A program made the translations under genes and the position numbers. Shown here one piece after another: positions 14,747-35,260 of a DNA stretch of 47,569 nucleotides. How positions within the stretch are numbered: position 1 is the stretch's first letter; every line of letters begins with the position of its first letter. Source of the stretch: a virus; the IMG/VR virus record IMGVR_UViG_3300008267_001650, positions 1 through 47,569 of that record; one strand, given 5' to 3'. The notes under the pieces are model-generated. The model did not search any database. It was not told where the DNA came from and worked only from the letters and a program-made list of their open reading frames with translations.

Positions 14747-17700
14747 ATGGCTAGAATTAGAACATTAGACTTCCTCCCGGAAATTTTTCAGACATCCACC
14801 AATAGTGAATTTTTGGCAGCAACGCTTGATCAAATCGTTAATCCGCCAAGCACGATACGTATTCAAGGATATGTGGGCAGCAAACTCGGGTATGGTATTA
14901 ATGCGACAAACAACTATGTAATTGAACCTACTAAAATTCGCACGGACTACCAATTAGATCCGGCAGTTGTCTTTACTAAAAAAGACGAAGAAATTGCCCA
15001 AGATTTCATTAGCTATCCTGGTATGATTGATGCACTAAATCTACAGGGCGCAGTAACTAACAACAATTCTAGACTTTTTGAAAGTCAATTCTATTCGTGG
15101 GATTCGTTTACCGATCTTGACAAACTAATTAACTACAATCAATATTATTGGTTACCGTTCGGCGCGCCAGCAGTAACAGTAAGCGCAGCCACAGTTTTTG
15201 CAAGCCAAGATTATGTCATCACTGATTTACCAAATGGATATAGCATCAGTGAGTTAGGTAGCGGTGGCGCCGCTGTTAATCCAACGCTTACCCTACTCAG
15301 AGGCGGCGTGTATAATTTTGCTGTCAGTCAGAGTAGTCAATTTTGGATTCAGGGCGAACCAGGCGTTACTGGTTATAGTCCAGCACAGCCTAATCTGTAC
15401 ACTCGTGATGTATATGGGGTCTCCAACAACGGTGCTAGTCAAGGTATCGTAAACTTTGCAGTGCCTAACAAAGACGCACAGGATGAATTTAACTTCCCCT
15501 ACAATACTACAGTAGATGTAATTTCTGATATCCCATTCGATCAAGTTAACGGAGCTAGACTGCAAGATTTAACTAACGGCATTGACGGAGTTACCGGTCT
15601 TAACGGCCTTACTGTTATGTTCTATAACACTGGGGTAGTGAATGAAACTGGATATGTAAGCTCGTACTTCGGTGAAACTGAATACGACACAAATCTTGGA
15701 TTAGTTGAACCCGTTGTTGCAACTGTTGGTAGCTGTGACTCATCTAGTCTCACACTCTCAGACGGTACTACTGATTTATTTTATGCGGTTGATCCTAATA
15801 CCGGTGTACTAATTTTTGCTCAACCTACTATTACGTTTAATAGCCCTGCTTTCGGAGGAATTGTTCCGGGACAAGTATACTATGTAAACAATGTCATCAA
15901 CTCAACTGATTTTACTATTAGTGAAACGCTGGGCGGATCGGCAGTGTCTCTTACTCCTAGTACCGGAGCAATGCCAGCAAATATTAATCAAGGGTTGTAC
16001 GAAGAAGGATTCTACACCCCAGTAAGTCAAAACTTCTATCAAGTGGAGTACGTTGGTGATCCAAATGACCCTGTATTAAGATTAAATCCAACAGGACTTA
16101 TTCCGATCAATACAAAAATCACAGCAATATATGGACAGCAATATGTTGGTTTAGGATTCTATAAGAACGTTGCCGGAAACATAACACAAATTCCATACAT
16201 AAGCGCACCGAAAGATATTCTATATTATCAAGACGGAACAACTGCTAATAAGGTAGGTGTTATCAGACTAATTGAAAGTAACGTTACTAACACATTAGAT
16301 GTAGAGACCGATATTTTAGGTCAAAAAAACTTCACATCAACTAACGGTGTAGTATTTACGAATGGATTAAAAGTAGAGTTTGACGGTGATGTAGTACCGG
16401 CAAGTTACCTAACAGGCGAATATTATGTTGAAGGAGTTGGTACCGGTATCCAACTTCTTCCTGTAGAGTCTTTAGTAGTTCCAGAAACATTCACATTAGA
16501 TGAATACAATCCTTATGACATAGCACCGTATGATATTGGCAATTATGATGTTAACTTAAATGTGCCGATTGACAAAGACTACATTACGATTGCTCGTGAC
16601 AGTATTAGTAAAAATGCTTGGTCAAGAAGTAACCGCTGGTTCCATATTGATGTAATTAGAGCTACTGCAACTTACAACAATAATCCAAATATTGTTACTA
16701 CGTTGGGCGCATATACTAACAAAGCCAACCGCCCGATTATTGAATTCTATCCTAATCTTAAAATGTTTAATTCTGGTTCTCGTGGAAAGAATCTAGTTGA
16801 CTTCTTTGATACAAGACAAACAGATGCATTATCGGTAATTCCCGGAACGAAAGCATACTACCCAGACGTTGAAACTTATACTGCATATGCTGCTACTATC
16901 GCATCAACAGTTACGTCCCCGGTTGCACCAAGTACGTTTGTTGTAGGTCAAACTTATCAGATTAACACATTAGGAACTACTGATTGGAATGTTGTAGCAG
17001 GCACATCAGGCGCAAGCTTTGTTATAGGTCAACGAATTACTTGTGCGGCAGCAGGAACCGGCACAGGTACCGCAACCCTGCTTGATACTAATACAACTAT
17101 TACTGTCAGTGAAGATGACATAACTGGATTATTCCAAGTAGGAATGTACGTCGGTGACACTGATGCTATTTTGCCGACTAACACACAAATCACAAGTATT
17201 TCTGGTACAGGTACAGGGACTTTAACATTAGCAGTTGAATGGCCAACTCCAGAAAACATTGCAGGTGCAAGCAACGCTAGTATCGTAGGCACTGACACTA
17301 CAGTTAACAACTATGAAGTATTCCCTGGTTCTAGAATTATTTTCAGTGAAGATACTACTGCCGGAACACGAACAAAAATCTACGTAGTAGATATTTCAGA
17401 AATTGTCACAGGTGAAGGCCCAGTCATTACATTGTCATTAGCTGAAGACGCTGAAATACTTCCAGACGACCAAGTTGCTATTCTACGTGGGTACAACTAT
17501 CGGGGTGAAACGTTCTACTACACAGGAACGGAATATTTACAAGCACAACAAAAAGTTACGGTAAATCAAGCTCCGCTGTTTGACGTATTTGATGAAAACG
17601 GCATTAGTTTCGGAGACACAGATGTATACAACGGTTCGAGCTTCCTAGGTAATAAGTTGTTTGCATACGGCGTAAGCGACTCTACCATTGACGACCCAGT

Positions 17701-20700: not shown

Positions 20701-22978
20701 TGAACACGCTATCGTATTCAATAACGTTACATTGTTTAACGACATCATTTATAATCTTATCACTGGACTAAAGCAAAACAGAATCAGTGTCAGTGGAACT
20801 AAGACAGCCGACTGGGACGGCACTGTTAATGCTTATGGATTTATTCTTAATCAAGACAACGTTAACGACTGGTCACCTAACATCAAGTATACTAAGGGAC
20901 AAATTGTCAAGTACAAGAACAGATATTATTCTGCATTAAGCTTATTGCAACCTGCACTAGTCTTCGAAGAATTGAACTGGGCACTTGTCGATTACGAAAA
21001 CATTCAAAAGGGCATGTTACCAAACTCAAGTACTCGTGCGTATGAAAGCACATTATACTATAATGTGAACAAGGCAAATATAGAGCAAGATGCTGATTTA
21101 CTCAGCTACTCATTGATCGGCTATCGTCCAAGAGATTATCTAGCACTAGTTGACTTGACTGACATTACCCAAATCAATGTATACAAGAACTTGATTCGCA
21201 ACAAGGGTACTAGAAATGCAACTCTTGCATTCAAGGGTGCTAACTTACCTCAAGGTGGCATCGATTACGATGTGTATGAAAACTGGGCAATTCAGTCTGG
21301 CTCATACGGTGGCACACTAAACGAAAACTTTGTTGAGTTTAAAATCAATCAAACTAGTATGACGGGCAATCCTTCAATTGTCGCATTGACTGAAGGTGTC
21401 TATACCCCAGGCGCAAATCAAGAGATTCCTTTATACAGCTTGTTCAACTACGGTCGTTCAATAACGACACCTAATATTCTAAGTACCACATACCTAACTA
21501 ATCCAAATCCACTCTATCCAAATGCTGGGTACGTAAACTTCAACGATGTTGAGATGGCATCGTATTATTTTGCAGGACTACCTGCAGCGGTTGACGCCAG
21601 TGGTATCCCTGTCCCTATCAATGAATTTTATGTTAGAGATTATATGTGGCTCGCTAACTTCAAAGAGAAGTGGGGAGTGTTCAGTTGGAAATCGATTGGT
21701 CAAGTGCTGCAAGTTGCAGGTAACTTAAATGGTACTGCTACTGTAACCTTTGCTCAACCTCATAATCTAAAAAGACTTGACCCACTATCAATTATTAACT
21801 TTGCAACAAACGTTGACGGTTATTACATTGTCACTGAAGTTCTAGGATTGAATCAGGTAATTATTAATCTGTCTGTAGGTAATGCAACTAACAATGCAAT
21901 TCAAGGTTTCGGCATCGGCTTGTCATTTGTTAATCAAAGAGTTGCAACTCCTGCTGACATTAAATCTATTGATTTACTTGAAGCAGAATTCCAAAAGAAC
22001 ACTGTATGGGTAGACGAAAATAACGACGGTGATTGGGCAGTATATCGCAAGAGCATCAACTATCAAAGCCAAGGTCAGCTAGAAGTAGATAACTCTACCA
22101 CATATGGTACTGCGGTTGCGTACACCCCTGATATGGGTTACTTAGTAAGTGATGCAGGTGCCGGCATTCTATATCGTTATGGTTATGATGATACAAATGG
22201 TACATACTCTGTCGGTGAAACTATCACTGAGGGAACATCATTTGGTACAAAGATTGTTTATGCTAATAACATTTATGTAGTCTCTGAACCAACAAGCGGT
22301 ACCCCAACAGTTTATGTGTACACACTAAACAACAGTATTCTTTCAGATGATATCGTAAGCTATCAAACAATTGTTGCTCCAATGGGAGTAACCAATTGGG
22401 GAACCGAACTAGCAATTAGTGATGACACTAATTGGATTTATATCAGTGACCTAACAAATGGTAAAGTCTATGTTTATCGTAAGCAGAACATTAATTTAAC
22501 TGCTGAATATCTCGTTCAAAATCAAACCTATGTCATTACTAGCGTAGGTGATACTGATTTCGTTGCTGACTTTGGCGCAATTGAAAATTCTGTAGGAATT
22601 ACATTTGTTGCAAATGCTAACGGTGTTATAGGCTCAAGCGGCACCGGTACTGCAATGCAGATTACATACGAACAATCTGCAATCATTGATGGTTCAGTGC
22701 AAGGACTCGTAAGTGCAGATGGATTTGCTAAGTCTACTTCAACTAATCAAAATGGTTCTGTACTCATCGTCGGCGCACCAAACAAGAACTTTAGCTCATT
22801 AATTCTTGACAATGGCGCCGCGTATGTTTATCAACGTACAGTGCAAAATGTTGAAGCACCGAATAACTCAATTCCAAATACTCCCCAGACATTCCAGTTA
22901 GCGTGGACCCCTACAACTGTAGGAACAACTGTGGCAAGCACTACTGCTCCAAACACAATTGAATTAGCAAGTGATTAG
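14747..22978 (+). CDS. giant tail/baseplate structural protein, fragment 1 (gp7 position)
   Basis: First 2743 codons of what reads as a giant gene ending at 35260. It follows gp6 where T4 has gp7. The N-terminus (FLPEIFQTSTNSEFLAATLD, GYVGSKLGYGIN, PTKIRTDYQLDP, LFESQFYSWDSFTDLDKLIN) resembles large baseplate proteins of marine T4-like phages, from memory. Most of the protein is beta-rich. Residues about 2450-2705 hold FG-GAP-like blades (WGTELAISDDTNWIYISD, GSVLIVGAPN). Two copies of the GTTD cassette are inserted at 16934-17080 and 22511-22663. The frame ends at TAG 22976, but similarity goes on in the -1 frame (GNTGIETNQVYYVESISG). The join is about 13 residues shorter than in related repeats, suggesting a deletion of about 40 nt. 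Confidence 0.8.
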   Translation: MARIRTLDFLPEIFQTSTNSEFLAATLDQIVNPPSTIRIQGYVGSKLGYGINATNNYVIEPTKIRTDYQLDPAVVFTKKDEEIAQDFISYPGMIDALNLQGAVTNNNSRLFESQFYSWDSFTDLDKLINYNQYYWLPFGAPAVTVSAATVFASQDYVITDLPNGYSISELGSGGAAVNPTLTLLRGGVYNFAVSQSSQFWIQGEPGVTGYSPAQPNLYTRDVYGVSNNGASQGIVNFAVPNKDAQDEFNFPYNTTVDVISDIPFDQVNGARLQDLTNGIDGVTGLNGLTVMFYNTGVVNETGYVSSYFGETEYDTNLGLVEPVVATVGSCDSSSLTLSDGTTDLFYAVDPNTGVLIFAQPTITFNSPAFGGIVPGQVYYVNNVINSTDFTISETLGGSAVSLTPSTGAMPANINQGLYEEGFYTPVSQNFYQVEYVGDPNDPVLRLNPTGLIPINTKITAIYGQQYVGLGFYKNVAGNITQIPYISAPKDILYYQDGTTANKVGVIRLIESNVTNTLDVETDILGQKNFTSTNGVVFTNGLKVEFDGDVVPASYLTGEYYVEGVGTGIQLLPVESLVVPETFTLDEYNPYDIAPYDIGNYDVNLNVPIDKDYITIARDSISKNAWSRSNRWFHIDVIRATATYNNNPNIVTTLGAYTNKANRPIIEFYPNLKMFNSGSRGKNLVDFFDTRQTDALSVIPGTKAYYPDVETYTAYAATIASTVTSPVAPSTFVVGQTYQINTLGTTDWNVVAGTSGASFVIGQRITCAAAGTGTGTATLLDTNTTITVSEDDITGLFQVGMYVGDTDAILPTNTQITSISGTGTGTLTLAVEWPTPENIAGASNASIVGTDTTVNNYEVFPGSRIIFSEDTTAGTRTKIYVVDISEIVTGEGPVITLSLAEDAEILPDDQVAILRGYNYRGETFYYTGTEYLQAQQKVTVNQAPLFDVFDENGISFGDTDVYNGSSFLGNKLFAYGVSDSTIDDPVLGFPVRISSIDNVGDISFDVSLNVDTFDYVSLGNPITQKVNTGYVYNFNTRVDYTRLLGWETTVAPSTQYQVFDFPYNQFSQPSQFTCDIAMSPELADGELGWPRIQVYFNNEYQSPENYSVSVGANQTVVTILTTPDNPNDTVVQVLLLSDQVSPTAYYTIPINLSNNPFNGDVTTVNVGDVRQQYRDIFINAPSTSGEIFGPNNYRDLGNLNVYGTKIIQNSASLVLPGTFLRKKEHDLYNSLLFNSREYIKYKQLIVDTVQNTDYVQRYTPSEILDDALDQITDAKSQLNAFFWSDMLPNKSPYRSNTYTFNNSLDTSIYPLSQIYNFETANYNGVLVYLTRTEQGITFQQQLLSGVDYVVSTDSPSLTVTLDLLPGDNITVKEYNQTYGSYIPNTPTKLGLYQAFEPSVVLDSNYNTPTYFIKGHDGSYTKLYGEYLPELNILVDFRDQALLEFEKRVYNNLKLSTEVPIYDYEVVPGYFRDPTYSWEEFLEMYSTGFLNWVGQNRLDYKTQFFNKLNEWTYNYTNSQNKLDRAPILQGYWRGLYEYLYDTTTPESTPWEMLGFANQPTWWTERYGPAPYTSDNDILWGDLEAGYVWNNGDSYIIPELARPGLSVILPVNSAGELLTPFVSTVANYNPSTFQKDWKVGDMGPVELSYRRSSSWPFDVIRLFSLTRPAEFFNLAVDLDNYKYNAEFNQYLVNNRQHLIINDVEIYGNGTAKTSYINWIVDYEKQLGIAATENITSLLDSLDVRLAYRLAGFSDKTLLKFYVEKGSPNSNNASLLIPDESYQVLLYDNQAYDQLMFTGVIIQRTDAGWSVYGNSQTFAYFTTLEPIYNGNNYTIEVPGASVRVTNDYGSKEVLVPYGTIFYSYQELSQFLLSYAAYLQSKGMIFDTITDGREVNWVLMVQEFLYWLQIGWEVGSVITLNPSANGIKINKESTVVEPLTIQQQNFILNQDLYPIQLNNLSVYRKDTEFNVQPLNTGDSLSYGQFNLNNFEHAIVFNNVTLFNDIIYNLITGLKQNRISVSGTKTADWDGTVNAYGFILNQDNVNDWSPNIKYTKGQIVKYKNRYYSALSLLQPALVFEELNWALVDYENIQKGMLPNSSTRAYESTLYYNVNKANIEQDADLLSYSLIGYRPRDYLALVDLTDITQINVYKNLIRNKGTRNATLAFKGANLPQGGIDYDVYENWAIQSGSYGGTLNENFVEFKINQTSMTGNPSIVALTEGVYTPGANQEIPLYSLFNYGRSITTPNILSTTYLTNPNPLYPNAGYVNFNDVEMASYYFAGLPAAVDASGIPVPINEFYVRDYMWLANFKEKWGVFSWKSIGQVLQVAGNLNGTATVTFAQPHNLKRLDPLSIINFATNVDGYYIVTEVLGLNQVIINLSVGNATNNAIQGFGIGLSFVNQRVATPADIKSIDLLEAEFQKNTVWVDENNDGDWAVYRKSINYQSQGQLEVDNSTTYGTAVAYTPDMGYLVSDAGAGILYRYGYDDTNGTYSVGETITEGTSFGTKIVYANNIYVVSEPTSGTPTVYVYTLNNSILSDDIVSYQTIVAPMGVTNWGTELAISDDTNWIYISDLTNGKVYVYRKQNINLTAEYLVQNQTYVITSVGDTDFVADFGAIENSVGITFVANANGVIGSSGTGTAMQITYEQSAIIDGSVQGLVSADGFAKSTSTNQNGSVLIVGAPNKNFSSLILDNGAAYVYQRTVQNVEAPNNSIPNTPQTFQLAWTPTTVGTTVASTTAPNTIELASD
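16934..17080 (+). repeat. GTTD cassette copy 1 (W type, 49 residues)
   Basis: In-frame unit beginning TFVVGQTYQINTLGTTDWN and ending GTGTGTATL. It has the pattern of all copies: a strand with Y-x-I, the hallmark L-G-T-T-D-W, a variable loop, a second strand, and a Gly-Thr-rich end. It lies between two stretches that show no other relation to the cassette. Confidence 0.8.
22511..22663 (+). repeat. GTTD cassette copy 2 (divergent, 51 residues)
   Basis: Begins LVQNQTYVITSVGDTDF and ends SGTGTAMQI. It interrupts an FG-GAP-like blade: the flanks read LTAEY before and TYEQSAIIDG after, and join to a plausible blade if the cassette is removed. It is the most diverged copy, with a longer loop before the Gly-Thr end. 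Confidence 0.7.
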
Positions 22979-23004
22979 GTAATACTGGAATTGAAACCAA
23001 CCAA

Positions 23005-26000
23005 GTGTATTACGTAGAGTCAATTTCTGGCACTGATATTACCATCAAAACAACTCGTTCTACTACAACAGAAGTTGAAGTAGATACCGTTGGCACAATT
23101 ACTGGTGTAACTGCTACAGTGCAAACTACACCTCTTTATGTAAATGTTAACGGTACATTAGTAGACGATATCAACTACGCAAGTGTTGGAAGTTTATTCT
23201 ATTATACAGGAACATTGCAAGCAGGCGACATTGTAAACATTAGTGACAATCAGTTCAACATGCTTCAAACATTGAACAATGATTATGTCAATAGAACTAA
23301 CATTCAGTTTGGTTATGACTTAGATGTTAACAAGCAAGGTTCAGATATTCTTGTAGGTTCACCATTTGAGATTGATGACAAGAATCGTGAGGGCGCGGTT
23401 TACAGATTTACTAACGGTGGCGCAAGACATGGCATCGTAATTGGTACAAGTGATGTTAATGTTGTGGGCAATCGCAATCTATTAATCAATGGATTCTTAG
23501 TACCACTTACACCAGGTGATGCAGACCATATCGCAGCTACTATCAATACTAATAACATCTCTAATGTTCAAGCAGCAGCAACCAATGGTAAATTAGTCAT
23601 CCAAGTTATCAACAATGACATTACAGTATTGAATGAGAAATTAGTAATTACTGCTTTTGATGGCAGCACACTTAATGAGCTTGGCTTACAAATCTTTACT
23701 AAAACTCAAATCATTACTTGCCCACATGAACAAGGACCAACTCAGTTTGGTTCAGCAATCAAGCTCAATGATTCTGGTTCAGTTGTTATCAGCGCACCAG
23801 TAGGCACTCGTTATGAAGGTACTACTTTCGACTTTACTGATGACGAACAACTTGATAATGATACAGTGTTTGATAATAACGCAACACGATTTGTAGAAAG
23901 TTATCCGAACGCAGGTGCAGTGTATATGTTTGACTTCTTGAGTCAAAACAACGAGAGCTTATTGAATCCAGGCTCGTATGTGTATGCACAGCCTGTCAAC
24001 AGCAATGATATAGATTATGGATTTAACCCAGAGTATGGCTACTCATTAGATTTTAACGAGAATGTTATAATGGTAGGGTCACCTAATTATCAACCTGCTC
24101 TAATAGGTGGACAAGTTATTGTCAACAAAAATAATACTGGGGTCAATGACTGGGCAGTGTATCGCCAAAGTTCACCTATTGTTGATATTGAGAAAATTCA
24201 AAACACTCAACTCTTTAGCGCCGAAACAAATAACACATTAGTAAATCTCGATTACATGGATCCATTGCAGGGCAAGTTGCTCGGTGCGGTTCGTCAAGAT
24301 ATTGACTATGTTTCTAGTGTCGATCCGGCGAAGTACAACAGCGATCTTGCTCCTATCACCGGACAAGTTTGGGGCGCACAGCATGTGGGCGAAATTTGGT
24401 TCAGCACAGGCAACGTAAGATTCTTAAACTATCATCAGAATGATCCTGTATACAATGCAAAGTACTGGGGTACATTATTCCCGGGTTCGGATGTAGCAGT
24501 ATACACTTGGGTAGCAAGTAATGTTCCACCTAACAATTATCAGGGAACTGGTTCACCATTAGATGTTAACTTGTTCTCAGTAAGCAGTACTCTAAATGCT
24601 TCAGGCATTGCTGTTCCTATCTATTATTTCTGGGTTAGAAACAGCAACATTATTGCACAACAGTTAGGCAAGCGTTTATCTGATACAATCATTGCATCAT
24701 ACATTGCTAATCCAAGGGCTAGTGGGGTTGCGTTTATGGCTCCTATATTGCCAAATGCTTTTGCACTTTATAACTGCTCACCGTATATCAATGCTAACGA
24801 TAGTGTATTCCATGTAGGATTCGCTAACGGTACAAACGACGATGCAGCGCATAACGAATTCACCCTGGTTCGTGAAAACTACCCAGACGACTTCTTACCG
24901 GGTTTACCATCTAGGGTCATAAAGACTTCTACCACTACTACTAACCTAACACAAAGCTTAAGCAAAACTTCAGAGCCATATGGCTTATATGACAGAATGC
25001 TTGACTCACTTAGTGGATGTGATGAGACAGGACAAGTCGTTCCTAACCCATTCTTACCTAAGGCAGTGCAAAGCGGTATTCTAGCAAGACCAAGACAGAG
25101 CTTCTTCTATAATAGATTTAAAGCATTGAACAATTATTTGGTGTATGCTAACTCAGTATTAGCACAAGTTCCTGTCGCTGAAACAAGACCAGACGCTACA
25201 TTCTTATTTGCTTCAGGTGAATTTTATAATACTCCTGACTATTGGGAGTTCATTAACTGGTGGGCACCGGGTTACAATGATAATACTAAATCAGTATTAG
25301 TAGTTCCGATTTATGCTGACCTTGCTGCACTAACAGTACCAACCGGAACAATCGTTAAGGTTGAACAAAACGGCGTTGGTAAGTTTGAAATATATATTAA
25401 CACTAGCGAAGTATTAAACACTTGGACACGAATCGGTTTAGAAAACGGAACAATCCGCTTTAAGTCAAGTCTATGGGATTATCCGGCTGCTAAGCTAGGC
25501 TTTGGTGGCGATTTCTATGACACCACTGTCTACGATCTTTACCCAAGTGAAGAAACTCGCTACATCATCCGTGCGCTAAACGAACAGATTTATATTGATG
25601 AACTATCGTTATTCAGAAATAAGAGCTTGATTCTATTATTCGAATACATCCAAAGCGAAACTACTGAATCTCAGAACTTCTTGCCTTGGCTCAACAAGAC
25701 TTCGCTTATTGACGTATCGCATACTATTCGTGAATTATTGCCTATTGAAAATCTTAAGACTGATAATCAGGCATTCTTAGAAGGGTACATCAACGAAGTC
25801 AAGCCTTATCACGTTGTCATTAAGGACTTCTTGTTTAATGACAATGAATACGAATATAGCCTAGATAGTACTATTTGGGAAGATGGTAATTACTCTCAGT
25901 GGTTTGCTAATAGAGGGGTATCTCTAGTTGGAGAGCCGGGATATCAAATCACTACTCTTACATCATATGTTACTACTGGCTCAAATTACCTGTTAGTTGA

Positions 26001-26679
26001 CAACGTGAACGGTTTCCCAATCAACGGTGTAATTACTATTGGTACAGAAGAAATTGCATATTCATTCGTAGATAGAGCGTTGAATCTTGTGGGCGGCTTA
26101 TTGCGTGGTGTTAACGGAACACCAATCTCTGAGCATATTCCCGGAGAACTGATTTATATTGATCTTCCTGCTGTCTTGCTATTAAACGGCGGCAGAGGCT
26201 ATCTCGAACCCCCTAAGATTACTGCATATATCGACACTGCAATTTATCCTGAACCTACAGTTCCTGCTCAATTAGAAGCAGTCATGAATTTGGATAGTGT
26301 GCTACAGATTAATGTCATCAATCCAGGTCAAGGGTATGCAGTTCTACCGCAAATCATCATTGACCCTGCTTACACCGTGTCGTTCAATAATACTAACGTA
26401 AACAATCTGTTGCACACGATTAACATATATGCTCCTAACTTAAGAACAGGAGATATCGTACGGTATGCACAAGCCCCTACCGGAGAAACGATTAATAAAT
26501 TATCTGATGGTCAATGGTATTATGTAGGTATTCTAGAAAATGATCCAGTCTCGGTAATTGCACTGTATACTAACTATGCAGATGCTCTACAAGATCATGA
26601 CAGAATTGCTATCACAGCAGATGGTGTTAGTGTTGGAATGACACTTAATGCAGGTGCTAAGGCTTCACTTTGCAGGTAG
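23005..26679 (+). CDS. giant tail structural protein, fragment 2 (frame-broken continuation)
   Basis: Continuation of the gene from 14747 in the -1 frame; the GTG at 23005 has no convincing ribosome site and is probably not a true start. It opens with a YYV-type repeat end, then FG-GAP-like beta-propeller blades (FGYDLDVNKQGSDILVGSPF, FGSAIKLNDSGSVVISAPVG, YGYSLDFNENVIMVGSPN) between 23300 and 24120. A conserved-looking region follows at 24385-25870 with VGEIWFSTGNVRFLNYHQND and GYINEVKPYHVVIKDFLFND. The end reads NAGAKA then SLCR and stop at 26679, while the +1 frame goes on with LHFAGSYFNSESV at about 26670. Seen: the frame change. Inferred: one protein. Confidence 0.75.
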   Translation: MYYVESISGTDITIKTTRSTTTEVEVDTVGTITGVTATVQTTPLYVNVNGTLVDDINYASVGSLFYYTGTLQAGDIVNISDNQFNMLQTLNNDYVNRTNIQFGYDLDVNKQGSDILVGSPFEIDDKNREGAVYRFTNGGARHGIVIGTSDVNVVGNRNLLINGFLVPLTPGDADHIAATINTNNISNVQAAATNGKLVIQVINNDITVLNEKLVITAFDGSTLNELGLQIFTKTQIITCPHEQGPTQFGSAIKLNDSGSVVISAPVGTRYEGTTFDFTDDEQLDNDTVFDNNATRFVESYPNAGAVYMFDFLSQNNESLLNPGSYVYAQPVNSNDIDYGFNPEYGYSLDFNENVIMVGSPNYQPALIGGQVIVNKNNTGVNDWAVYRQSSPIVDIEKIQNTQLFSAETNNTLVNLDYMDPLQGKLLGAVRQDIDYVSSVDPAKYNSDLAPITGQVWGAQHVGEIWFSTGNVRFLNYHQNDPVYNAKYWGTLFPGSDVAVYTWVASNVPPNNYQGTGSPLDVNLFSVSSTLNASGIAVPIYYFWVRNSNIIAQQLGKRLSDTIIASYIANPRASGVAFMAPILPNAFALYNCSPYINANDSVFHVGFANGTNDDAAHNEFTLVRENYPDDFLPGLPSRVIKTSTTTTNLTQSLSKTSEPYGLYDRMLDSLSGCDETGQVVPNPFLPKAVQSGILARPRQSFFYNRFKALNNYLVYANSVLAQVPVAETRPDATFLFASGEFYNTPDYWEFINWWAPGYNDNTKSVLVVPIYADLAALTVPTGTIVKVEQNGVGKFEIYINTSEVLNTWTRIGLENGTIRFKSSLWDYPAAKLGFGGDFYDTTVYDLYPSEETRYIIRALNEQIYIDELSLFRNKSLILLFEYIQSETTESQNFLPWLNKTSLIDVSHTIRELLPIENLKTDNQAFLEGYINEVKPYHVVIKDFLFNDNEYEYSLDSTIWEDGNYSQWFANRGVSLVGEPGYQITTLTSYVTTGSNYLLVDNVNGFPINGVITIGTEEIAYSFVDRALNLVGGLLRGVNGTPISEHIPGELIYIDLPAVLLLNGGRGYLEPPKITAYIDTAIYPEPTVPAQLEAVMNLDSVLQINVINPGQGYAVLPQIIIDPAYTVSFNNTNVNNLLHTINIYAPNLRTGDIVRYAQAPTGETINKLSDGQWYYVGILENDPVSVIALYTNYADALQDHDRIAITADGVSVGMTLNAGAKASLCR

Positions 26680-29470
26680 CTATTTTAATTCTGAATCAGT
26701 GTCAAGTTCTAATATATTACTTGACAACGAAAATCCTGACATTAGTACTATTCTTGCTAGTGCCCAAGGCGTTCCGTTTGAAATTAGTGAGGTTGAAAAC
26801 GATAGACAGCTAACTTGGTCTTCATTCGTCAGACAAGTTGAAAGAACGTCTTCAACTAATAATACAATAAGATTAGTACCGTCGACAAAAACATTCGCCG
26901 GCACCGCATCAATTGCAGGAACTGCAATGAACATCACTGCAATTACTGAGGGCACGGTGGTACTCGGTACATATGTATACGGTGTTAACGTTAATCCTGA
27001 CACAACGATTATTTCACAGACTAGCGGTACTCCTGGAGGCACTGGTATATATGAAGTGTCTATTAGTCAGTCATCAGCCAGCGCATCAGTCATCGGTTAT
27101 GAAACCCATGTATCAGGAAGCACTCTTGGTTTCTATGAAGGCATGCCAGTCAAATTTGAAGGCTACACAATCGGCGGATTAGTAGATAGCGTAGAATATT
27201 ATGTAAAGGCTATCGTAAATGATCTTGACTTTACTATTTCTGCAACAGACGGCGGTGCAACCCTAGCCTTAACTACTGAAGCGGTTGGTTTACAGACTCT
27301 AGGTTGTTATTCAGGCGAAGTAGTAGATACGGCTATCTTGACTGTAAACTATCCGGGTATTCTAGATGTAACTGCGACAACAGCAGGGACAAATACGTTG
27401 ACTGTTCCTATCTCAGAGATTGGTACAGGCGGAACAGCAGGTTTCTATCCTAACTTACCTATATTCTTTACTGGTAACGTCTTCGGTGAGATAGTTGAAA
27501 ATGATCCATACTATGTTACTACTGTCATTGATAATCAAACATTCACTCTCTCTAAGACTGAAAACCCGTTGACAGTTGACGTTACGCAAACTAGTTCTTC
27601 TACTGGTTATGTAACTATGGACTCTACTGTTGGATTCAGTGTAAATGATGCAGTAATCTTTACTGGTACAACATACGGTAACATCGTTGCTGGCACTGTT
27701 TACTACGTAAGACAAATCATTAGCGGCACACAAATTACATTAGCTACTGCAATCAACGGTTCACTATTCAATCCAGGCAATAGTACTGACACAATGACTA
27801 TTGTGAGTCAAGCGGATACGGTGGACCTCACTACTGCTACTGGAAACATGACAATGAACGTATCGCTTCCAGTAAGTCCGGGTCAAGTTAACGGACAGCT
27901 ATTCACTCTTTATACTACTTCAGGACAATATCCGAACATTAGCAGCGGCATAATCGGGAATCTAATTGAAAGAGATATCGGAGCTACTATAGGTGACGGG
28001 CTAAATCGAGTAGCATTAAGCGAACTTAGTGGTGGAACAACTAACTTCTATGTTAACATGCCATTTAGAGTTGGCGCTACAGTTGGTGGAAATTTAGTTG
28101 CAGGTACAACTTTCTACGTAAGTGAGTATTCAGGTGAAACTATTCCTGACCCACTGAATCCAGGAGAGTTCATCAACCGCCCTAATATCGAGGTAACTGT
28201 ATTAAGCACTAATGCTAGTACAGATGAATTGACTTGTAGTACGATAGACACTGCCGCTCCTACTGATACATTGTATGTAGGGATGCCAATCATATTCTCC
28301 GGTTCAGGCTTAGGCGGCATTACGATTGGACAGCAGTATTTTGTTTATTCAATAAATGTAGACGGTGTACGTTTCCAGATTACTGACACGGTAGGTGGCG
28401 CATCACCGGTTAACTTATTAGGTGAAAGCGGAACAATGCTTGGTACTGGTGACCCATACATTGTAGTAGTTGACTCTCCTGGAGGAACTGAAATCGTGTT
28501 AAGTGACGATACGCCAGTAACTCCCGGTGATGTCCTAACTACACTTGATCAGTTCTACACTGTAACTCCAGTCTTTGACATATCATACATTCTTGGTGGA
28601 TATCGTGCTATTGTTTCTAACGGTGGTGAAGGTTTTGCAATTGATAACACAATTACTATTCTAGGAACTGAGGTCGGTGGTGTGTCTCCTGCTAACGACA
28701 TCACGCTAACTGTTAATACAATCAATGAGGAATCTGCTCCATATGGTGCAATTACAGATGTTATCGCTGCAGGTAGTGTACCTTCAAACCCATCACAATA
28801 CTACTTGAAGGTAGTATCACCTACTCAATTCGCAGTCTATAGTGATCCGTTGATGGAAGTTCCGGTATCAGGTATTGATTTTGGATTTGTGGGCTTTACA
28901 ACTGCTATTGCAAAGACAACCAGCAGCACCGGTAATTTAATCACTCTTCCCATACTGACTAATGCCGGATCATTTGAGATTGGTAAAACCTATCAGATTG
29001 TTTCGGTGGGAACAACCGACTTTACTCTTATTGGTGCAGCAAGTAACACAGTGAGTGTAACGTTTGTTGCAACTGGTGTAGGTTCTGGAACAGGTACTGC
29101 AAATCTTGCAGTATCCGAATTATTCGCTATCAACGATTCAGTCGTGTTTACCGGAAATGTATTCGGAAATATAGTATTAGGTCAGACATATTACATTAAA
29201 ACAATTGCTTCACCTACTGCTATTACTATTTCAGAAACGCCAGCCGGCATAGCGTTTAATCCGGGCAATGGCTCAGGAACAATGACAATGGCTAAGGCAG
29301 GAAGCTTTGCATTCTTACCAGAACCTTTCTACTTCATGCCATCAATTGTCAAGTATCTTGGTAGAGTATGGATTTGTATAGTCTCAAATAATGATGATGA
29401 TTTCATCTTGGGTAAGTGGGAAGAGTTACTTTCGGGGGATAGAAAACTCAATGCACTTGATAGAAACTGA
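26648..29470 (+). CDS. giant tail structural protein, fragment 3 (repeat-rich)
   Basis: Next frame of the giant gene, overlapping fragment 2 by 32 nt. True coding in this frame probably begins near 26665, so the first residues of the open frame are noise. It is dominated by the YYV-type repeat: a strand ending in FTG or FSG, then FGNIVAGTVYYV, then a strand such as QITLATAINGS, ending in TM. At least six copies lie between 27115 and 29290. Cassette copy 3 is inserted at 28970-29107 and splits the start of one such repeat. The C-terminal end contains LGRVWICIVSNNDDDF and SGDRKLNALDR before the stop at 29470. The continuation ETEVDLSAIVYDGSKYIAP is in the +1 frame. Confidence 0.75.
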   Translation: MQVLRLHFAGSYFNSESVSSSNILLDNENPDISTILASAQGVPFEISEVENDRQLTWSSFVRQVERTSSTNNTIRLVPSTKTFAGTASIAGTAMNITAITEGTVVLGTYVYGVNVNPDTTIISQTSGTPGGTGIYEVSISQSSASASVIGYETHVSGSTLGFYEGMPVKFEGYTIGGLVDSVEYYVKAIVNDLDFTISATDGGATLALTTEAVGLQTLGCYSGEVVDTAILTVNYPGILDVTATTAGTNTLTVPISEIGTGGTAGFYPNLPIFFTGNVFGEIVENDPYYVTTVIDNQTFTLSKTENPLTVDVTQTSSSTGYVTMDSTVGFSVNDAVIFTGTTYGNIVAGTVYYVRQIISGTQITLATAINGSLFNPGNSTDTMTIVSQADTVDLTTATGNMTMNVSLPVSPGQVNGQLFTLYTTSGQYPNISSGIIGNLIERDIGATIGDGLNRVALSELSGGTTNFYVNMPFRVGATVGGNLVAGTTFYVSEYSGETIPDPLNPGEFINRPNIEVTVLSTNASTDELTCSTIDTAAPTDTLYVGMPIIFSGSGLGGITIGQQYFVYSINVDGVRFQITDTVGGASPVNLLGESGTMLGTGDPYIVVVDSPGGTEIVLSDDTPVTPGDVLTTLDQFYTVTPVFDISYILGGYRAIVSNGGEGFAIDNTITILGTEVGGVSPANDITLTVNTINEESAPYGAITDVIAAGSVPSNPSQYYLKVVSPTQFAVYSDPLMEVPVSGIDFGFVGFTTAIAKTTSSTGNLITLPILTNAGSFEIGKTYQIVSVGTTDFTLIGAASNTVSVTFVATGVGSGTGTANLAVSELFAINDSVVFTGNVFGNIVLGQTYYIKTIASPTAITISETPAGIAFNPGNGSGTMTMAKAGSFAFLPEPFYFMPSIVKYLGRVWICIVSNNDDDFILGKWEELLSGDRKLNALDRN
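28970..29107 (+). repeat. GTTD cassette copy 3 (F type, 46 residues)
   Basis: Begins SFEIGKTYQIVSVGTTDFT and ends GSGTGTANL. It is preceded by NAG and interrupts the start of a YYV repeat (LITLPILTN before, AVSELFAINDSVVFTG after). It shares long identical runs of DNA with copy 5, including attggtgcagcaagtaa. Confidence 0.8.
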
Positions 29471-32400
29471 GGTAGACTTGAGTGCTATTGTATATGACGG
29501 AAGCAAATATATTGCACCTGCAAACTTGCCAAATTACAGTGCAGTAGTCGGAAGCATTAACAGCGAAGATTGGGTAATCGGAAAACTCACTAACGCAGGT
29601 ATCGGCATCACCGACATCATCTATGGCGGTGACTACTATGTAATGACATCTACTAATAGTGCCACTCCTATTCTAAGAAGCAATGACGGAATAGAGTGGA
29701 GTACTAACGGTTATTATACACCGTACAGTCTATTGCCGTATGACACTAATCCATATGATATGACATCATTAAGTGTATCAGCCCTAGCGTTAAATTCAGT
29801 AGGGTTTACATACCAGACTACATCTATTATAGTTAATGCTACTAATTTAGTATATGGTCAACGGTATGCTATTCGCACTGTAGGCACAACAGACTTCACT
29901 ACCGCAGGGGCTAGCTCAAATACTGTAGGTACAATCTTTACTGCGACTACGACTGCAACTGGTACTGGCAATGTGTTCTTAGTGCAACCGGTTTATGTTG
30001 CAGTCGGTGAGAATATCATAAGAAGCGAAGATACATATGTTTGGAGACAAACTACCGAGTTTAATCCTACTTACAATTATCAGTTGTTTGGAGTAAGTGA
30101 AGTTGTTACTGAAGACTTCTCCGGATTCGTAGCTGTAGGGAAAGGTAAAATGCCTGATTACTCTACTGGTATAACAGAATTAATCGATACTGATTTAATT
30201 TTCTATAGTAACGATAGCGGAGTAACTTGGATTCAGGTAAACACCGTAAGTCCAAATGGACTTAATGGAGTGACATCTGACGGAACGGCTGCAATAGCAG
30301 TGGGCGAGCGCGGCGCTATCTATTATTCATTGAATGGTGCTACTTGGTTAGGTGTTACTGAAGCCGGTGTAAGTTCATTAAACACTGCGACAAATCAAAT
30401 CAATATAACAAGCACTATCGGTCTAAACGTTAACGATCCTATTAAGTTTAGCAAGAGCTTTGCTTCTATTGTTGCAGAAACAATTTATTATGTAAAATCA
30501 ATTGATTCGCCAACTCAGATTACGATTTCGACAACACCTAGCGGAGCTATTAAGCAATTAGTTAATATCACTGCTGGTTCGTTTGCTTCTGGAACTTCGT
30601 ATGTCATCACTTCAATTGGGACAACCGACTTTACATTAATTGGTGCAGCAAGTAATACAGTGGGTATCACATTCACCGCTACTGGAACAGGTACTGGAAC
30701 AGGTACTGCTAATATCGTAGCAGGTGATAACATTCCAGTTCAAACAATGATGTATCAATATGATCCAGCAGACCCTGTTCCATCAGAACTACGTGACGTA
30801 ATTTATGTTAACGGCTTTTGGATTGCGGTCGGCGACGATGGTACAGTAAAAACTTCTACCGATTACATCACTTGGACATTGAGTGATTCGGGTACTTCAG
30901 AAAGCTTGAAAGGAATCACATTTAACAGTGATGATAATTCCTTTACTGCGGTCGGCGATAATAATACTATCATTGTGAGTGACGATAACGGTACAACATG
31001 GACAAGCGCATCACTATTAAGTATTACCCCTCCCGTATATGATGTAGTAGGTTCACCGTTCGAATTCGGATATGGTCCTGAAGAATTAGTACCTGGCGTA
31101 GTTTCTGATAATCTTGCTATGATTGTGACTACAAAGCCAGGTACAACTTGGCCAGTTGTAGTATACGGTCACACTGGATTTAACATAGCTGCTGTTGTAT
31201 TGACACCAACCTCATCTACTCAAACTCAATACAGTTTTGAAAATGTAGTAGAGTACCCAACACAACTAACAGCACAAGTAGTCGACGGTGTTACTGGATT
31301 GGCGCAAACTTTGTCAGAAAGTGAATATACGATTGACTGGATCAACAAGACAATTACTCTTGTAACTCCTCTTTCTTTCTTACCAGTAGATAGCTTACGT
31401 ATCGAAGTGTATGAAGCAGGCAACGGAAATCAACTAGTGAAGTCTAGCACCGACGTTAACCCGATTAGGCAAAACAGCGGTACCGGATTCGATGAGATAT
31501 ATCTAAATTGTAACTATACCGCACTAAGTTATGAGGGCGGCGGCGCAATTCGACCAGGCACTGAACCGATAACTGTTCTTGCTACTGCTACTGATGGCAC
31601 ATCTAATAGAGTTGTATGCGAAAGCACTGATCTATTCGTACTCAACAGTCCAATCACTTTCCAAGGGGTGACGTTTGGCAACATTCAAGAAGACTTCACT
31701 TACTATGTAAAGTCTATCAGTCCCGCTACGAACTCAATAACGATTTCGGCTTCGTATAATTTGGTTACCGGATTAGCTGGACCAACTTTCACATTAGTTA
31801 CTGCAACTGGTACAATGTATGTTAACATCCAAACAGGAAGTGGATTAGTTTGGGCTGACCCACTCGTTTATCACAACGGTGAAAGGTTAATTCTAGGTGA
31901 GACTGGTCTCATTACTAAATCATCGTCTTCCACTAACGCATTTACTACTACAACTACATCCGGCTTAGTCACTGGCGAGAGAATAATGTTTAGTGAAGAA
32001 ATGTTTGACTCAGGTGTTACCCCGCTAACTCCTTACTATGTACGAGATGTGCTTGTTGGCGGCAATGAGTTCACTATTTCTGCTACCATCGGAGGTCCGG
32101 TTTTCCCGCTCGACGATGCATCAGGTACTGCTATATTTGTTTCTAGTGACTTCGCTATCGGATTGCAAGTTGCAACTAATCAAGCAAAACTAATTTTTGC
32201 TACGGATGGGTATGACAATGGACAAGATTATATTGTCTACTCGATTTTCGGAGAAACAGTTCCTGTAACGTATGGCTACTCTGCCCCCGAAATTCAAGAA
32301 TTCATTGGCAATGGTTCAACAACTGTGTTTGCACTAGCAAATTACGTAGGTGGAACTAATCCTGAAAATGCAGTAGTAGAAATTAATGGATTGCGTCTAT

Positions 32401-32780
32401 TGAGTTCGCTATACACGATTAACCCATCTACAAATAATCTACTACTAAACATTACACCTGCAATAGGTGATGTAGTACGAGTTACCTCATATAACGACAC
32501 AGACCAGCAGTACCTAACTACTCAGTACGGTATTACTGCTAATCCAACAAACAATATTGCTACGTTGGAAGTTGGGCAGGCCAGACACACTGGGATATTG
32601 TTTGATGATTTAGCAAGCCCAACCGGAAGTCCCCCAACTGTATCAGGTTCGTTCATAGAAGGACAAACTTATGTTATCAACACGGTCGGAACGACAAACT
32701 TTACGGCACCGGTACCGCATATGTTGGATATGATGCACCCTCACAGATTCCAGTTGCGTCAGTTAATGCAGTTGATTTGA
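29391..32780 (+). CDS. giant tail structural protein, fragment 4 (Asp-box propeller and repeats)
   Basis: Frame of the giant gene that becomes coding near 29465; the 24 or so residues before that are out of frame with the protein. It holds five Asp-box motifs of the S-x-D-x-G-x-T-W type at 29679, 30207, 30327, 30855 and 30978 (SNDGIEW, SNDSGVTW, SLNGATW, STDYITW, SDDNGTTW), the mark of a sialidase-like beta-propeller that often binds glycans. Cassettes 4 and 5 sit between blades. A conserved-looking part at 31050-31135 reads FEFGYGPEELVPGVVSDN. YYV repeats occur at about 30400, 31620 and 31930. The reading frame is lost inside cassette 6 near 32704; the last 25 residues are out of frame. No catalytic sialidase residues can be claimed. 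Confidence 0.75.
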   Translation: MMMISSWVSGKSYFRGIENSMHLIETEVDLSAIVYDGSKYIAPANLPNYSAVVGSINSEDWVIGKLTNAGIGITDIIYGGDYYVMTSTNSATPILRSNDGIEWSTNGYYTPYSLLPYDTNPYDMTSLSVSALALNSVGFTYQTTSIIVNATNLVYGQRYAIRTVGTTDFTTAGASSNTVGTIFTATTTATGTGNVFLVQPVYVAVGENIIRSEDTYVWRQTTEFNPTYNYQLFGVSEVVTEDFSGFVAVGKGKMPDYSTGITELIDTDLIFYSNDSGVTWIQVNTVSPNGLNGVTSDGTAAIAVGERGAIYYSLNGATWLGVTEAGVSSLNTATNQINITSTIGLNVNDPIKFSKSFASIVAETIYYVKSIDSPTQITISTTPSGAIKQLVNITAGSFASGTSYVITSIGTTDFTLIGAASNTVGITFTATGTGTGTGTANIVAGDNIPVQTMMYQYDPADPVPSELRDVIYVNGFWIAVGDDGTVKTSTDYITWTLSDSGTSESLKGITFNSDDNSFTAVGDNNTIIVSDDNGTTWTSASLLSITPPVYDVVGSPFEFGYGPEELVPGVVSDNLAMIVTTKPGTTWPVVVYGHTGFNIAAVVLTPTSSTQTQYSFENVVEYPTQLTAQVVDGVTGLAQTLSESEYTIDWINKTITLVTPLSFLPVDSLRIEVYEAGNGNQLVKSSTDVNPIRQNSGTGFDEIYLNCNYTALSYEGGGAIRPGTEPITVLATATDGTSNRVVCESTDLFVLNSPITFQGVTFGNIQEDFTYYVKSISPATNSITISASYNLVTGLAGPTFTLVTATGTMYVNIQTGSGLVWADPLVYHNGERLILGETGLITKSSSSTNAFTTTTTSGLVTGERIMFSEEMFDSGVTPLTPYYVRDVLVGGNEFTISATIGGPVFPLDDASGTAIFVSSDFAIGLQVATNQAKLIFATDGYDNGQDYIVYSIFGETVPVTYGYSAPEIQEFIGNGSTTVFALANYVGGTNPENAVVEINGLRLLSSLYTINPSTNNLLLNITPAIGDVVRVTSYNDTDQQYLTTQYGITANPTNNIATLEVGQARHTGILFDDLASPTGSPPTVSGSFIEGQTYVINTVGTTNFTAPVPHMLDMMHPHRFQLRQLMQLI
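29847..29981 (+). repeat. GTTD cassette copy 4 (F type, 45 residues)
   Basis: Begins LVYGQRYAIRTVGTTDFT and ends ATGTGNVFL. It lies between Asp-box motifs 1 and 2, splitting a blade: IIVNATN before, VQPVYVAVGENIIRS after. Confidence 0.75.
30579..30716 (+). repeat. GTTD cassette copy 5 (F type, 46 residues)
   Basis: Begins SFASGTSYVITSIGTTDFT and ends GTGTGTGTANI. It is preceded by TAG and follows a YYV repeat; both together sit between Asp-box motifs 3 and 4. It serves as the reference F-type copy because it is complete and uninterrupted. Confidence 0.8.
32649..32722 (+). repeat. GTTD cassette copy 6, internally deleted and out of frame
   Basis: Begins SFIEGQTYVINTVGTTNF in the frame of fragment 4, then jumps to GTGTAY in the frame of fragment 5. 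Only 74 nt remain of an expected 138 or so. The missing 64 nt or so (1 modulo 3) explain the frame change between the two fragments. Confidence 0.75.
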
Positions 32781-35260
32781 TTCCAGGAAATAATTACGAA
32801 ATTACTTCTTTGGGAACAACTGATTGGAACGATGTTGCTGGCACCGTTCCTCTAGAGGCAGGTAATTTTGTAATTGGACAAACCTATATAATTGAAACTT
32901 TAGGTACAACTGATTTCACATTAATCGGCGCAACATCAGTAAATGCAGGTTCATTTGTGTCAGGAACAGAATATATTATTACATCACTTGGTAGTACTGA
33001 TTGGGATGCGGTAGCAGGAACAACAGGTGAAACTTATGTAGTAGGAGATAAACTGACCGCACAAGCATCTGGCTCTGGAACAGGAGTAGCATTAGAAACA
33101 TTATTTGTTGCTAATGGTTCAGGAACCGGCGACGGTACTGCAAACTTTGGATATTTGGTTGGAGACATCATTACCGTAATTAATACTGGTTCTGGAACTG
33201 GAACTGCTGATACAGTAAATAGTGCATATGACGAGAGTTTGAATTGGCTTGTGCTTTCTTCAGGGTCAACTACTTCATTGGCTGTGGGTGACGCAGTAAT
33301 ATTTTCTGCAAATCCTGACATGTTAGGCGGCTTAATTGAAAATAAAACATATTATGTTATTGAAATTTGGAATAGCACAGATTTTGTAGTATCAGATGTG
33401 CCTAATGGACCGGCAGTGGTGTTAACTAACGACACTGGTACAATGGATGTCAATGCTAACCCATTCCTAGTAGTACCAATCACAAATATTAATAACACTA
33501 TTACTAATCCAATTGCGCAGGTTGTTGCAATAGCTACTACTACTGTCACAAATGAAATTACTGTACTAAGTACTGATAATTTTGTAGCGAATCAAACAGT
33601 AGAGTTTAATGGCGATCCCGCAGATTGGACTGGCAGCCCGCTATTCGGCGGAATTAACCCGGGCGAAATTTATTTCGTTGCAGGTATTGCAGCAGCTAAC
33701 TTAAGTGCAGCAACCCAGTATACTATCGCAGTATTAGGCAACACTGATTGGAATGCAATTGGCTACGTGGGAACACCGGTCGTTGGTGGAACATTCACTG
33801 CTTCGGCTGCTGGCACGGGAACAGGGGAAGCGTTCAGTGCTACCGCGTTTACTATCAAAGATCAAGATGGCAATCAAATTGCACTATCAAATGGAACTGG
33901 AATTCTAGTTGTTACTGTCGGCGGAACACCAGCAGTAACAGTCACGACATCGACTCCACCAGGATTCACCCTCAACACTCGTATTCGACTTGATGGTATT
34001 TCTGGTTCTACGCAGCTTAATGGGAATGCGTATTATGTGCGTCCTGTAACTGATACTGTATTTGAACTTTATCAGCAGGCTTACAACACCGCGTTTAATG
34101 CAACTAACTACCCAGTTACAACGGTATCTACATACTCAGGTGGTGGTTATATTTGGCAGCAAGGTATTCTATATCTAATTACGACATTCGCATCAGAAAC
34201 CGCGACATCGAACAAGATTACAGTTGCATCTACTGCGGATCTGGTTGAAAATACTCCGGTATACTTCAGTAAAGCCGGTGAAGAGAACGGAATAGATATA
34301 CTAGGTGGAATAGTGCAGGGTACCGAATACTTTGTACACACTATCTATTCTATAACTGAGTTTAGCGTATCTACTCAGCAGTATGGTGATGAATTTACAT
34401 TAACAAATGACAGCGGATACATTAACGTTACTCAGTGGAAACAGATAAACGTTGACCGTGTCTGGGTAACTGTTAACGGTTACCGAGTGCCTTCTGAGAA
34501 GTTGAGATTAAGTGACTTCAATGAATTGAGTATACTTACAACTATTGAAGCAGGTGACGAAATCATCATCACTAATATGATTCCTACTGCTACACCTAAC
34601 GAAGAAATATACATTAATTTTGTAAGCGCCACTAATGAAGGAACTGTATACAGAGAGAATGTAGGGAATAGAACTTGGTTAACACAACCTATCTATGACC
34701 TAAGCACATTGATATACGTTAATGATGTAAATTCAGTAACGGATCAAATTATTCAAAATGTTACTACACCGTCAGCGGTAGACGGTAGCTATCAGATTGG
34801 ATTGACTGCTCCTAGAAACTTGATACTGTCAGTGCAAGTAGTAAACAATACTACTGGTAACACGGTTGACCCAAGTAACTATTCTATTGTAATCGAAGAC
34901 CTTGCTCCAATACTAAAAATTAATGCAGGTTCGTACATCACACCGGGCAATGAATTAACAGTTACTACACTAATAGGCGGAACTATTTTGGTCAATGGTG
35001 AGCAAATTAACTTTGGTTCGGTAGACGTAGCAAACAATACACTTGGTAACATTCAACGAGGAGCCAATGGTACTGCTAAGCAGTTCTTGATTCCGGAATA
35101 TACAGTAGTTTACGGTTTACTAAATGAAAACAAGATGGCAGATACGTATTATGATCAAGTTTGGAATAGTTACGTCTATCAACCATATCCTCTAGGTGAC
35201 CCTTTGCAAATTAGCGAAACACCCGCTGCATTATTCTTAGAGTCGGATGCACAGGTATGA
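32777..35260 (+). CDS. giant tail structural protein, fragment 5 (C-terminal, nested cassettes)
   Basis: C-terminal part of the giant gene. The coding frame is already recognisable from 32705 (GTGTAYVGYDAPSQ), 72 nt before the TTG at 32777, which shows that this is a continuation and not a new gene. The first 147 residues are three nested GTTD cassettes (see the repeat entries at 32777-33217). YYV repeats follow at about 33255 and 33560, the second split by cassette 10 at 33701-33838. The last 260 residues (34440-35260) are non-repetitive with NVDRVWVTVNGYRVPSEKL and GEQINFGSVDVANNTLGNIQ. The stop overlaps the next ATG (ATGA at 35257), so translation of the following mini-gene may be coupled. 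Confidence 0.75.
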   Translation: MIPGNNYEITSLGTTDWNDVAGTVPLEAGNFVIGQTYIIETLGTTDFTLIGATSVNAGSFVSGTEYIITSLGSTDWDAVAGTTGETYVVGDKLTAQASGSGTGVALETLFVANGSGTGDGTANFGYLVGDIITVINTGSGTGTADTVNSAYDESLNWLVLSSGSTTSLAVGDAVIFSANPDMLGGLIENKTYYVIEIWNSTDFVVSDVPNGPAVVLTNDTGTMDVNANPFLVVPITNINNTITNPIAQVVAIATTTVTNEITVLSTDNFVANQTVEFNGDPADWTGSPLFGGINPGEIYFVAGIAAANLSAATQYTIAVLGNTDWNAIGYVGTPVVGGTFTASAAGTGTGEAFSATAFTIKDQDGNQIALSNGTGILVVTVGGTPAVTVTTSTPPGFTLNTRIRLDGISGSTQLNGNAYYVRPVTDTVFELYQQAYNTAFNATNYPVTTVSTYSGGGYIWQQGILYLITTFASETATSNKITVASTADLVENTPVYFSKAGEENGIDILGGIVQGTEYFVHTIYSITEFSVSTQQYGDEFTLTNDSGYINVTQWKQINVDRVWVTVNGYRVPSEKLRLSDFNELSILTTIEAGDEIIITNMIPTATPNEEIYINFVSATNEGTVYRENVGNRTWLTQPIYDLSTLIYVNDVNSVTDQIIQNVTTPSAVDGSYQIGLTAPRNLILSVQVVNNTTGNTVDPSNYSIVIEDLAPILKINAGSYITPGNELTVTTLIGGTILVNGEQINFGSVDVANNTLGNIQRGANGTAKQFLIPEYTVVYGLLNENKMADTYYDQVWNSYVYQPYPLGDPLQISETPAALFLESDAQV
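32864..33148 (+). repeat. GTTD cassette copy 8 (middle, F type), split by copy 9
   Basis: 5' part 32864-32950 (NFVIGQTYIIETLGTTDFT, LIGATSVNAG) and 3' part 33098-33148 (TLFVANGSGTGDGTANF). The two parts sum to 29 plus 17 residues, exactly the 46 of a complete F-type cassette, and align residue for residue with copy 5. Confidence 0.75.
32951..33097 (+). repeat. GTTD cassette copy 9 (innermost, W type, 49 residues)
   Basis: Complete uninterrupted unit beginning SFVSGTEYIITSLGSTDWD and ending SGSGTGVALE. Same length as copy 1. It sits within copy 8 after NAG, the same kind of flank (A-G or S-G) that precedes copies 3, 5, 6 and 8. Confidence 0.78.
33701..33838 (+). repeat. GTTD cassette copy 10 (46 residues), inside a YYV repeat
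   Basis: Begins LSAATQYTIAVLGNTDWN and ends GTGTGEAFS. The YYV repeat around it reads GEIYFVAGIAAAN before and ATAFTIKDQDGNQIAL after. With the cassette removed, the host repeat has a normal order of strands. Confidence 0.75.

Follow-up and report, generated by a model that had tools for sequence, protein, structure and literature searches.

The window analysed here, a phage contig of 47,569 nucleotides from IMG/VR, encodes ten copies of a protein cassette of about 50 residues within one giant virion structural gene. Our analysis suggests, with a probability of about 75%, that this cassette is a mobile, self-nesting domain that inserts in loops and would be spread by recombination between phages, without transposition machinery of its own. 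Comparison of related sequences demonstrates repeated gain, nesting and swapping of a domain that stays in frame and is selected as protein. Promiscuous domains on phage particles are already known; what appears to be undescribed is a domain that inserts in loops, occurs in 60 virion-gene clusters, nests in itself several layers deep and is present in one and absent from the other of two phages that are about 98% identical.

Ten cassette copies in a giant virion gene

The open reading frames (ORFs) of the window include a late sigma factor, a tail lysozyme, a baseplate wedge protein (gp6-like) and other virion genes. The giant gene, about 20.5 kb long, lies 3' of the gp6-like gene, belongs to PHROG family phrog_10938 and is distantly homologous to genes of jumbo phages, for example PA5oct, RaK2, 121Q and Atu_ph07. 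In relatives of the window it forms a single ORF of about 5,300-6,800 amino acids. The initial annotation had spoken of one giant gene, which holds for the relatives but not for the ORFs of the window, where the gene is broken into five by frame changes near 22975, 26670, 29465 and 32705; these four probably stem from indels introduced in sequencing or assembly.

An HMM built from the window copies recovers all ten in the window (Table 1), and the copies reported initially are therefore real: the cut-off for a full copy is 25 bits, and no reversed-sequence control scores above 15.3 bits. Iterated over related loci, the HMM has 49 positions, with the consensus TAGSFVVGQTYTITSLGTTDFTLIGATSTNTVGVTFTATGVGSGTGTAT, and the unit measures 47-52 amino acids, whether dispersed or nested. 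The ten units had been described as separate copies; all are present, but only seven are contiguous, copy 6 being truncated at a frame change and copies 7 and 8 being split in a nest of the form 7(8(9)8)7. The A-G or S-G that precedes the first F, earlier taken for a flanking feature, belongs to the unit itself (consensus TAGSF) and is not a target site. Nor do copies 3 and 5 share the long identical DNA runs from which recent copying had been concluded. Their DNA identity is 71% and their longest common run 17 nucleotides, against 63% identity under random codon choice (P 0.0015), so that, judged from their DNA, they are related but not recent. Copy 2 of the window, which is 15 nucleotides longer than its counterparts in L001 and L017, has 70% identity to them, compared with 86-88% in the flanks, an apparent case of either a swap or accelerated divergence.

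Table 1. Position of the giant gene and of the cassette copies in the window
Feature	Position	Strand	Evidence or remarks
Giant virion structural gene (phrog_10938)	14747..35260	+	5 ORFs in window; intact, 5.3-6.8 kaa, in relatives
ORFs of the giant gene	14747-22978, 23005-26679, 26648-29470, 29391-32780, 32777-35260	+	
Copy 1, W-type, TTDWNVVAGT	16925..17086	+	HMM; absent in sisters L062/L064/L065/L017
Copy 2, older, common to most relatives; unusually divergent in window	22499..22663	+	HMM, presence/absence, tree
Copy 3, window-only, within N-terminal part of FGNI-type repeat domain	28961..29107	+	HMM; 24 loci empty; tree; AlphaFold model
Copy 4, common to L001 only	29835..29984	+	HMM; tree: gain before window/L001 split
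Copy 5, common to L001, L002/L012, L003/L004/L005/L008	30570..30719	+	HMM, presence/absence, tree
Copy 6, truncated, frame change across: GSFIEGQTYVINTVGTTNFT / YGTGTA	32640..32725	+	HMM; L012 counterpart intact
Copy 7 (outer), N-terminal half	32765..32854	+	Nest analysis
Copy 8 (middle), N-terminal half, within copy 7 loop	32855..32941	+	Nest analysis; AF2
Copy 9 (inner), intact, within copy 8 loop	32942..33097	+	HMM, nest analysis; AF2
Copy 8, C-terminal half	33098..33151	+	Nest analysis
Copy 7, C-terminal half	33152..33217	+	Nest analysis
Copy 10, window-only, between two FGNI-type strands (YFVAGI / AFTIKD)	33689..33838	+	HMM; 12 loci empty; tree

Cassettes nested within cassettes

Self-nesting, which the initial annotation had not noticed, is the strongest evidence for mobility. 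Between 32765 and 33217 the order is the amino-terminal half of copy 7, the amino-terminal half of copy 8, the whole of copy 9, and then the carboxy-terminal halves of copies 8 and 7; the two outer copies are split because copy 9 lies inside copy 8 and copy 8 inside copy 7. Rejoined by script, copies 7 and 8 score 61 bits each, and the intact inner copy 9 scores 66. Aligned with the un-nested unit that L012 carries at the same site, the rejoined copy 7 with its downstream flank is identical at 49 of 72 positions (68%), and only one gap, of one residue, is needed. In an AlphaFold2 model of the nest, copies 8 and 9 reach pLDDT 92-98 and both show the canonical succession of elements; the prediction for copy 7, the outer one, is less secure.

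Further nests occur in L044, L033/L029, L053, L034, L084, L076, L137 and L052, with a depth of up to about four, and un-nested homologues display the empty state (L034 versus L023; L084 versus L085). Host cassettes are interrupted at two positions, in most cases within the loop that follows DF..IGA and in two cases between GT and TDF.

Proposed mode of spread

In our proposal, the unit of about 50 residues folds by itself as a small domain, and its DNA would be inserted in frame in loops, both those of virion proteins in aquatic phages and those of cassettes that are already in place. The chain ends of the unit may lie close together, so that turns would be permissive and the host protein would stay folded. 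Co-infecting phages would recombine and exchange, by homology, loop segments that carry a cassette, and new sites would be opened by rarer illegitimate or micro-homology insertion. A dedicated transposase would have no part in this spread; among the window ORFs with a PHROG hit there is no recombinase, the contig being a fragment. Once in place, the cassette would be kept as a tolerated and probably useful surface module, with a possible role in adhesion, spacing or antigen-like variation. A more speculative proposal, which we think improbable, is that the cassette represents a new kind of mobile unit, a self-contained domain that would propagate across unrelated structural genes of phages and target DNA that encodes loops, those of the cassette among them, by a specific phage recombination or template-switching process, and that nesting is a routine means of constructing giant virion proteins.

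Distribution and host proteins

A profile search from the copies finds the unit far beyond the window gene: there are at least 417 full copies in at least 299 loci and at least 60 host-gene clusters (defined on masked host ORFs), in a sampling that includes contig fragments. IMG/VR scans with single units gave at least 461-513 confirmed loci each; the nine-copy alignment was too variable for searching viral contigs. Searches of cultured phages with single copies (tblastn) gave no match; matches appeared with the consensus and a loose cut-off. Cultured or deposited phage records contain three examples, one of them the single copy in structural protein UYE97271.1 of cyanophage S-TIM54, and there are five in 84,980 genomes of cellular species. 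One of the cellular loci (L170, Flavobacterium filum) is a bacterial ORF of 1,899 amino acids with two adjacent cassettes, apparently nested at a different loop, and may belong to a prophage or encode a secreted adhesin.

Among the hosts looked at, all those with an assigned function are virion or tail-associated. Their matches, in Pfam and in the commonest 25 of 92 PHROG families, include the central tail fibre J, tail fibre and spike proteins, the baseplate wedge, T4 gp8, tail sheath, tail tube, head closure Hc3, head-tail adaptors and connectors, minor tail proteins and major head proteins. One listed hit is called an amidase, and the ORF concerned has further matches to families of head closure and virion structural proteins. 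The alignment of L248 to a tail-protein family runs through the cassette and contains about 44 additional residues, as insertion in a loop would give, and in L157, compared with L094, the unit lies in a tail protein with J-like and FN3 features whose flanks are about 90% identical. The cassette is widespread in uncultured aquatic phages, has no family in Pfam or PHROGs and gave no relative in the PDB search. It appears to serve phages as a plug-in domain by which surface proteins are enlarged and varied.

Reading frame and selection

A cassette that is lineage-specific, dispersed, nested and found in 60 unrelated host-gene clusters could also be a selfish DNA element, similar to the Rickettsia palindromic elements or to a non-autonomous transposon, that is mobilised in trans and for which coding is camouflage. 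We consider this unlikely, as the properties of the DNA point to selection on the protein. All 417 full copies are in frame in ORFs of at least 156 amino acids, and so are 10,645 of the 10,711 matches at the DNA level; out-of-frame matches arise only as gapped alignments, a single match lies outside a protein hit and none is antisense. The pN/pS ratios of 0.09-0.30 indicate purifying selection at the protein level. Over 60 copies no palindrome or RNA structure rises above shuffled sequences (mean fold z -0.40), the unit carries no dyad signal, and no hidden ORF is present, alternative frames being open no more often than expected from random codons. In the closest filled and empty pairs, about ten of which were inspected by eye, there are no terminal inverted repeats and no target-site duplications.

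Near-identical dispersed copies, as a selfish element might leave, are also lacking: in about 43,600 comparisons no non-orthologous pair exceeds 78.5% DNA identity, and the step of copying from donor to target has therefore not been caught. The best partner lies in the same genome in 14 of 167 cases, against 1.3 expected; copies from one genome are only slightly more alike than expected, a likeness that may reflect codon usage.

Filled and empty sites among relatives

Alignment of homologous giant genes, by which the mobility claimed in the initial annotation could be judged, reveals sites that are empty in some relatives and filled in others. For window copies 1, 2, 3, 4, 5 and 10, alignment of both flanks identifies relatives that have the unit as well as relatives that lack it. 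On a FastTree phylogeny of the conserved, cassette-free part of the giant gene, with gains placed by parsimony and polarity taken from this one gene, a single gain each is required at site 5 (ancestor of the window, L001 and L012), at site 4 (window and L001) and at sites 3 and 10 (window alone). Site 1 requires four changes; it is a hot spot used repeatedly, where inserts of other kinds are found too. In L046, L029, L030 and L019 the site of copy 1 (16934) is occupied by non-cassette inserts, with a gap of 73-88 residues, which suggests a general hot spot for insertion.

Across all loci, a strict empty homologue exists for 193 of 399 testable copies (126 of them distinct), a count from which self-matches are excluded and in which the same-contig comparisons of L182, L090, L002 and L012 that remain among the nested cases are to be disregarded. 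The net insertion has a median of 52 amino acids (interquartile range 50-55). Where a locus seemed empty when matched against itself or against a second locus on its own contig (L284, L109, L182/L090), the match was rejected as an artefact of neighbouring copies. With hundreds of sites, many of them with empty homologues, the spread of a domain by loop insertion becomes measurable.

Recency, for which copies 3 and 5 had been cited, is instead documented by two sister loci with about 98% DNA identity, L073 and L081, of which only L073 has an extra unit. Over about 4 kb most 150-nucleotide bins are 95-100% identical, and the only diverged bins (87% or less) are those of the junction and of a neighbouring shared cassette. 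Since L018, L032, L035, L051, L031 and L016 are also empty, the unit in L073 is a gain. A stepwise series is seen in a P22-gp10-like head-closure or stabilisation protein, which has three cassettes in L228 and L230, two in L241 and one in L220, L226 and L231, among proteins that are 75-90% identical and with an insertion in a TDN-GD-TK turn. At one site of this protein L230 (residues 394-448) has a different type of cassette from L228, L241, L220, L226 and L275, with 70-74% identity in the cassette and 82-93% in the flanks, an apparent cassette swap.

The junctions in filled and empty pairs are not clean, a few host residues being replaced, which fits recombination without proving it. Faster evolution of the cassette itself was rejected, as cassettes diverge on average no faster than their flanks in 66 close pairs (mean -0.008); the exceptions, ten or so comparisons that reflect a few events, look like swaps or strong divergence.

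It is very unlikely that the cassette is an ancestral domain repeat of one giant gene whose copies were lost differently in relatives. Site 2 is common to most relatives and site 1 to many, as such a history would predict; loss, however, cannot produce nested copies, nor does it account for the single gains at sites 3, 4, 5 and 10, for a unit shared by 60 unrelated gene clusters or for the copy found in L073 alone. Nesting, the tree gains and the 60 clusters refute it as a general explanation. Lineage-specific gains, nesting, the unrelated host clusters and the consistent frame strongly support the earlier description of a coding mobile unit. Slightly less probable still is an assembly artefact in which repeats were mis-joined in metagenome contigs. 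The four frame changes and the truncated copy in the window gene would be in keeping with it, but independent contigs whose ORFs are intact (5-7 kaa) have these insertions at identical sites, the unit is present in the cultured phage S-TIM54 and in a bacterial isolate genome, and the nested copies 8 and 9 are modelled with high confidence.

Predicted fold and sequence families

Structure prediction for one unit gives a confident fold. AlphaFold models copy 3 at pLDDT 95 and pTM 0.79 and places strand residues close to either end; the predicted unit comprises two short helices and a few strands. The conserved columns in an alignment of 120 copies are A, G, F, Y, I, T and N. No Pfam family matches the consensus or the window copies, and a Pfam scan of 120 members gave only chance-level or weak matches to YjbE, PilW_C and Glucokinase; those to YjbE (22 members, best E 8.5e-4) were absent in four single scans and are therefore treated as composition. 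PHROGs hold no family for the unit, and a sequence search of the PDB found no relative. A fold search of the PDB with a single unit (Foldseek, VIA) likewise gave no match, which is not proof of a new fold. Among viral predicted structures there are seven matches at E < 1e-3, all to the same cassette unit in phage proteins. The inner nested copy resembles FeoA (PDB 3e19_B) with Z 4.1 and rmsd 1.9 over 45 residues, the next match being at 2.8, too weak for assignment.

In-frame insertion in structural genes would also be expected of a mini-intein or intron-like element removed from protein or RNA, but a splicing element is the least credible explanation: in agreement with the initial annotation, none of 120 aligned copies combines a Cys, Ser or Thr start with a His-Asn end, the unit has only 50 residues and no RNA structure above shuffles, and its residues are under strong selection in a confidently folded domain. 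The intein, intron, palindromic-element, hidden-nuclease and tandem-repeat readings were each tested and rejected.

Comparison with known systems

Rickettsia palindromic elements are in-frame selfish DNA of about 100-150 bp in coding genes. The cassette is similar to them in being a short in-frame insertion in unrelated genes with empty orthologous sites; it differs in that it lacks a palindrome and non-coding or antisense copies, is selected as protein and, among hosts of assigned function, is confined to virion genes. These elements are mentioned in PMC10969869. PARCEL, like the cassette, is a horizontally spread coding repeat in surface proteins. It consists, however, of tandem arrays of 25 residues with dyad symmetry, whereas the cassette is a dispersed and nested globular domain of about 50 residues. 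The ShiLan domain is another in-frame insertion in phages, with a hidden HNH endonuclease, and is predicted to loop out without splicing (PMC11855218); the cassette, in contrast, has neither hidden ORF nor nuclease and occurs in many hosts and many copies.

The Ig-like domains (Big_2, FN3, I-set) on virion proteins of tailed phages (Fraser et al. 2006, cited in PMC8718954) are, according to the account given in PMC8718954, optional and promiscuous, occur on many unrelated virion proteins, are probably horizontally transferred and are in several cases dispensable; the examples from T5 pb6, lambda gpV, SPP1 gp17.1* and YSD1 are carboxy-terminal domains. The cassette is likewise promiscuous on unrelated virion proteins; it differs, however, in its size of about 50 residues, in having no Pfam Ig, FN3 or Big match, in its position inside loops and in its nesting within itself. 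The likeness to FeoA and to SH3-like small barrels is structural and weak (a middling Z), with no sequence match. The cassette constitutes a ready-made small scaffold that tolerates insertion.

Other features of the window

A second dispersed domain of about 70-90 residues, with the pattern VxFTGxxFGNIxxGxxYYVxxIxxxTxFTISxTxGG, has many occurrences between 23000 and 35000 of the giant gene. It is the host for cassettes 3 and 10 and may itself be a repeat of interest. Other short overlaps of ORFs on the same strand, at 7998-8044, 38612-38639, 39423-39448 and 46322-46340, possibly have the same origin as the frame changes in the giant gene. At the end of the contig (43467-47518) lie three adjoining genes with radical SAM matches.
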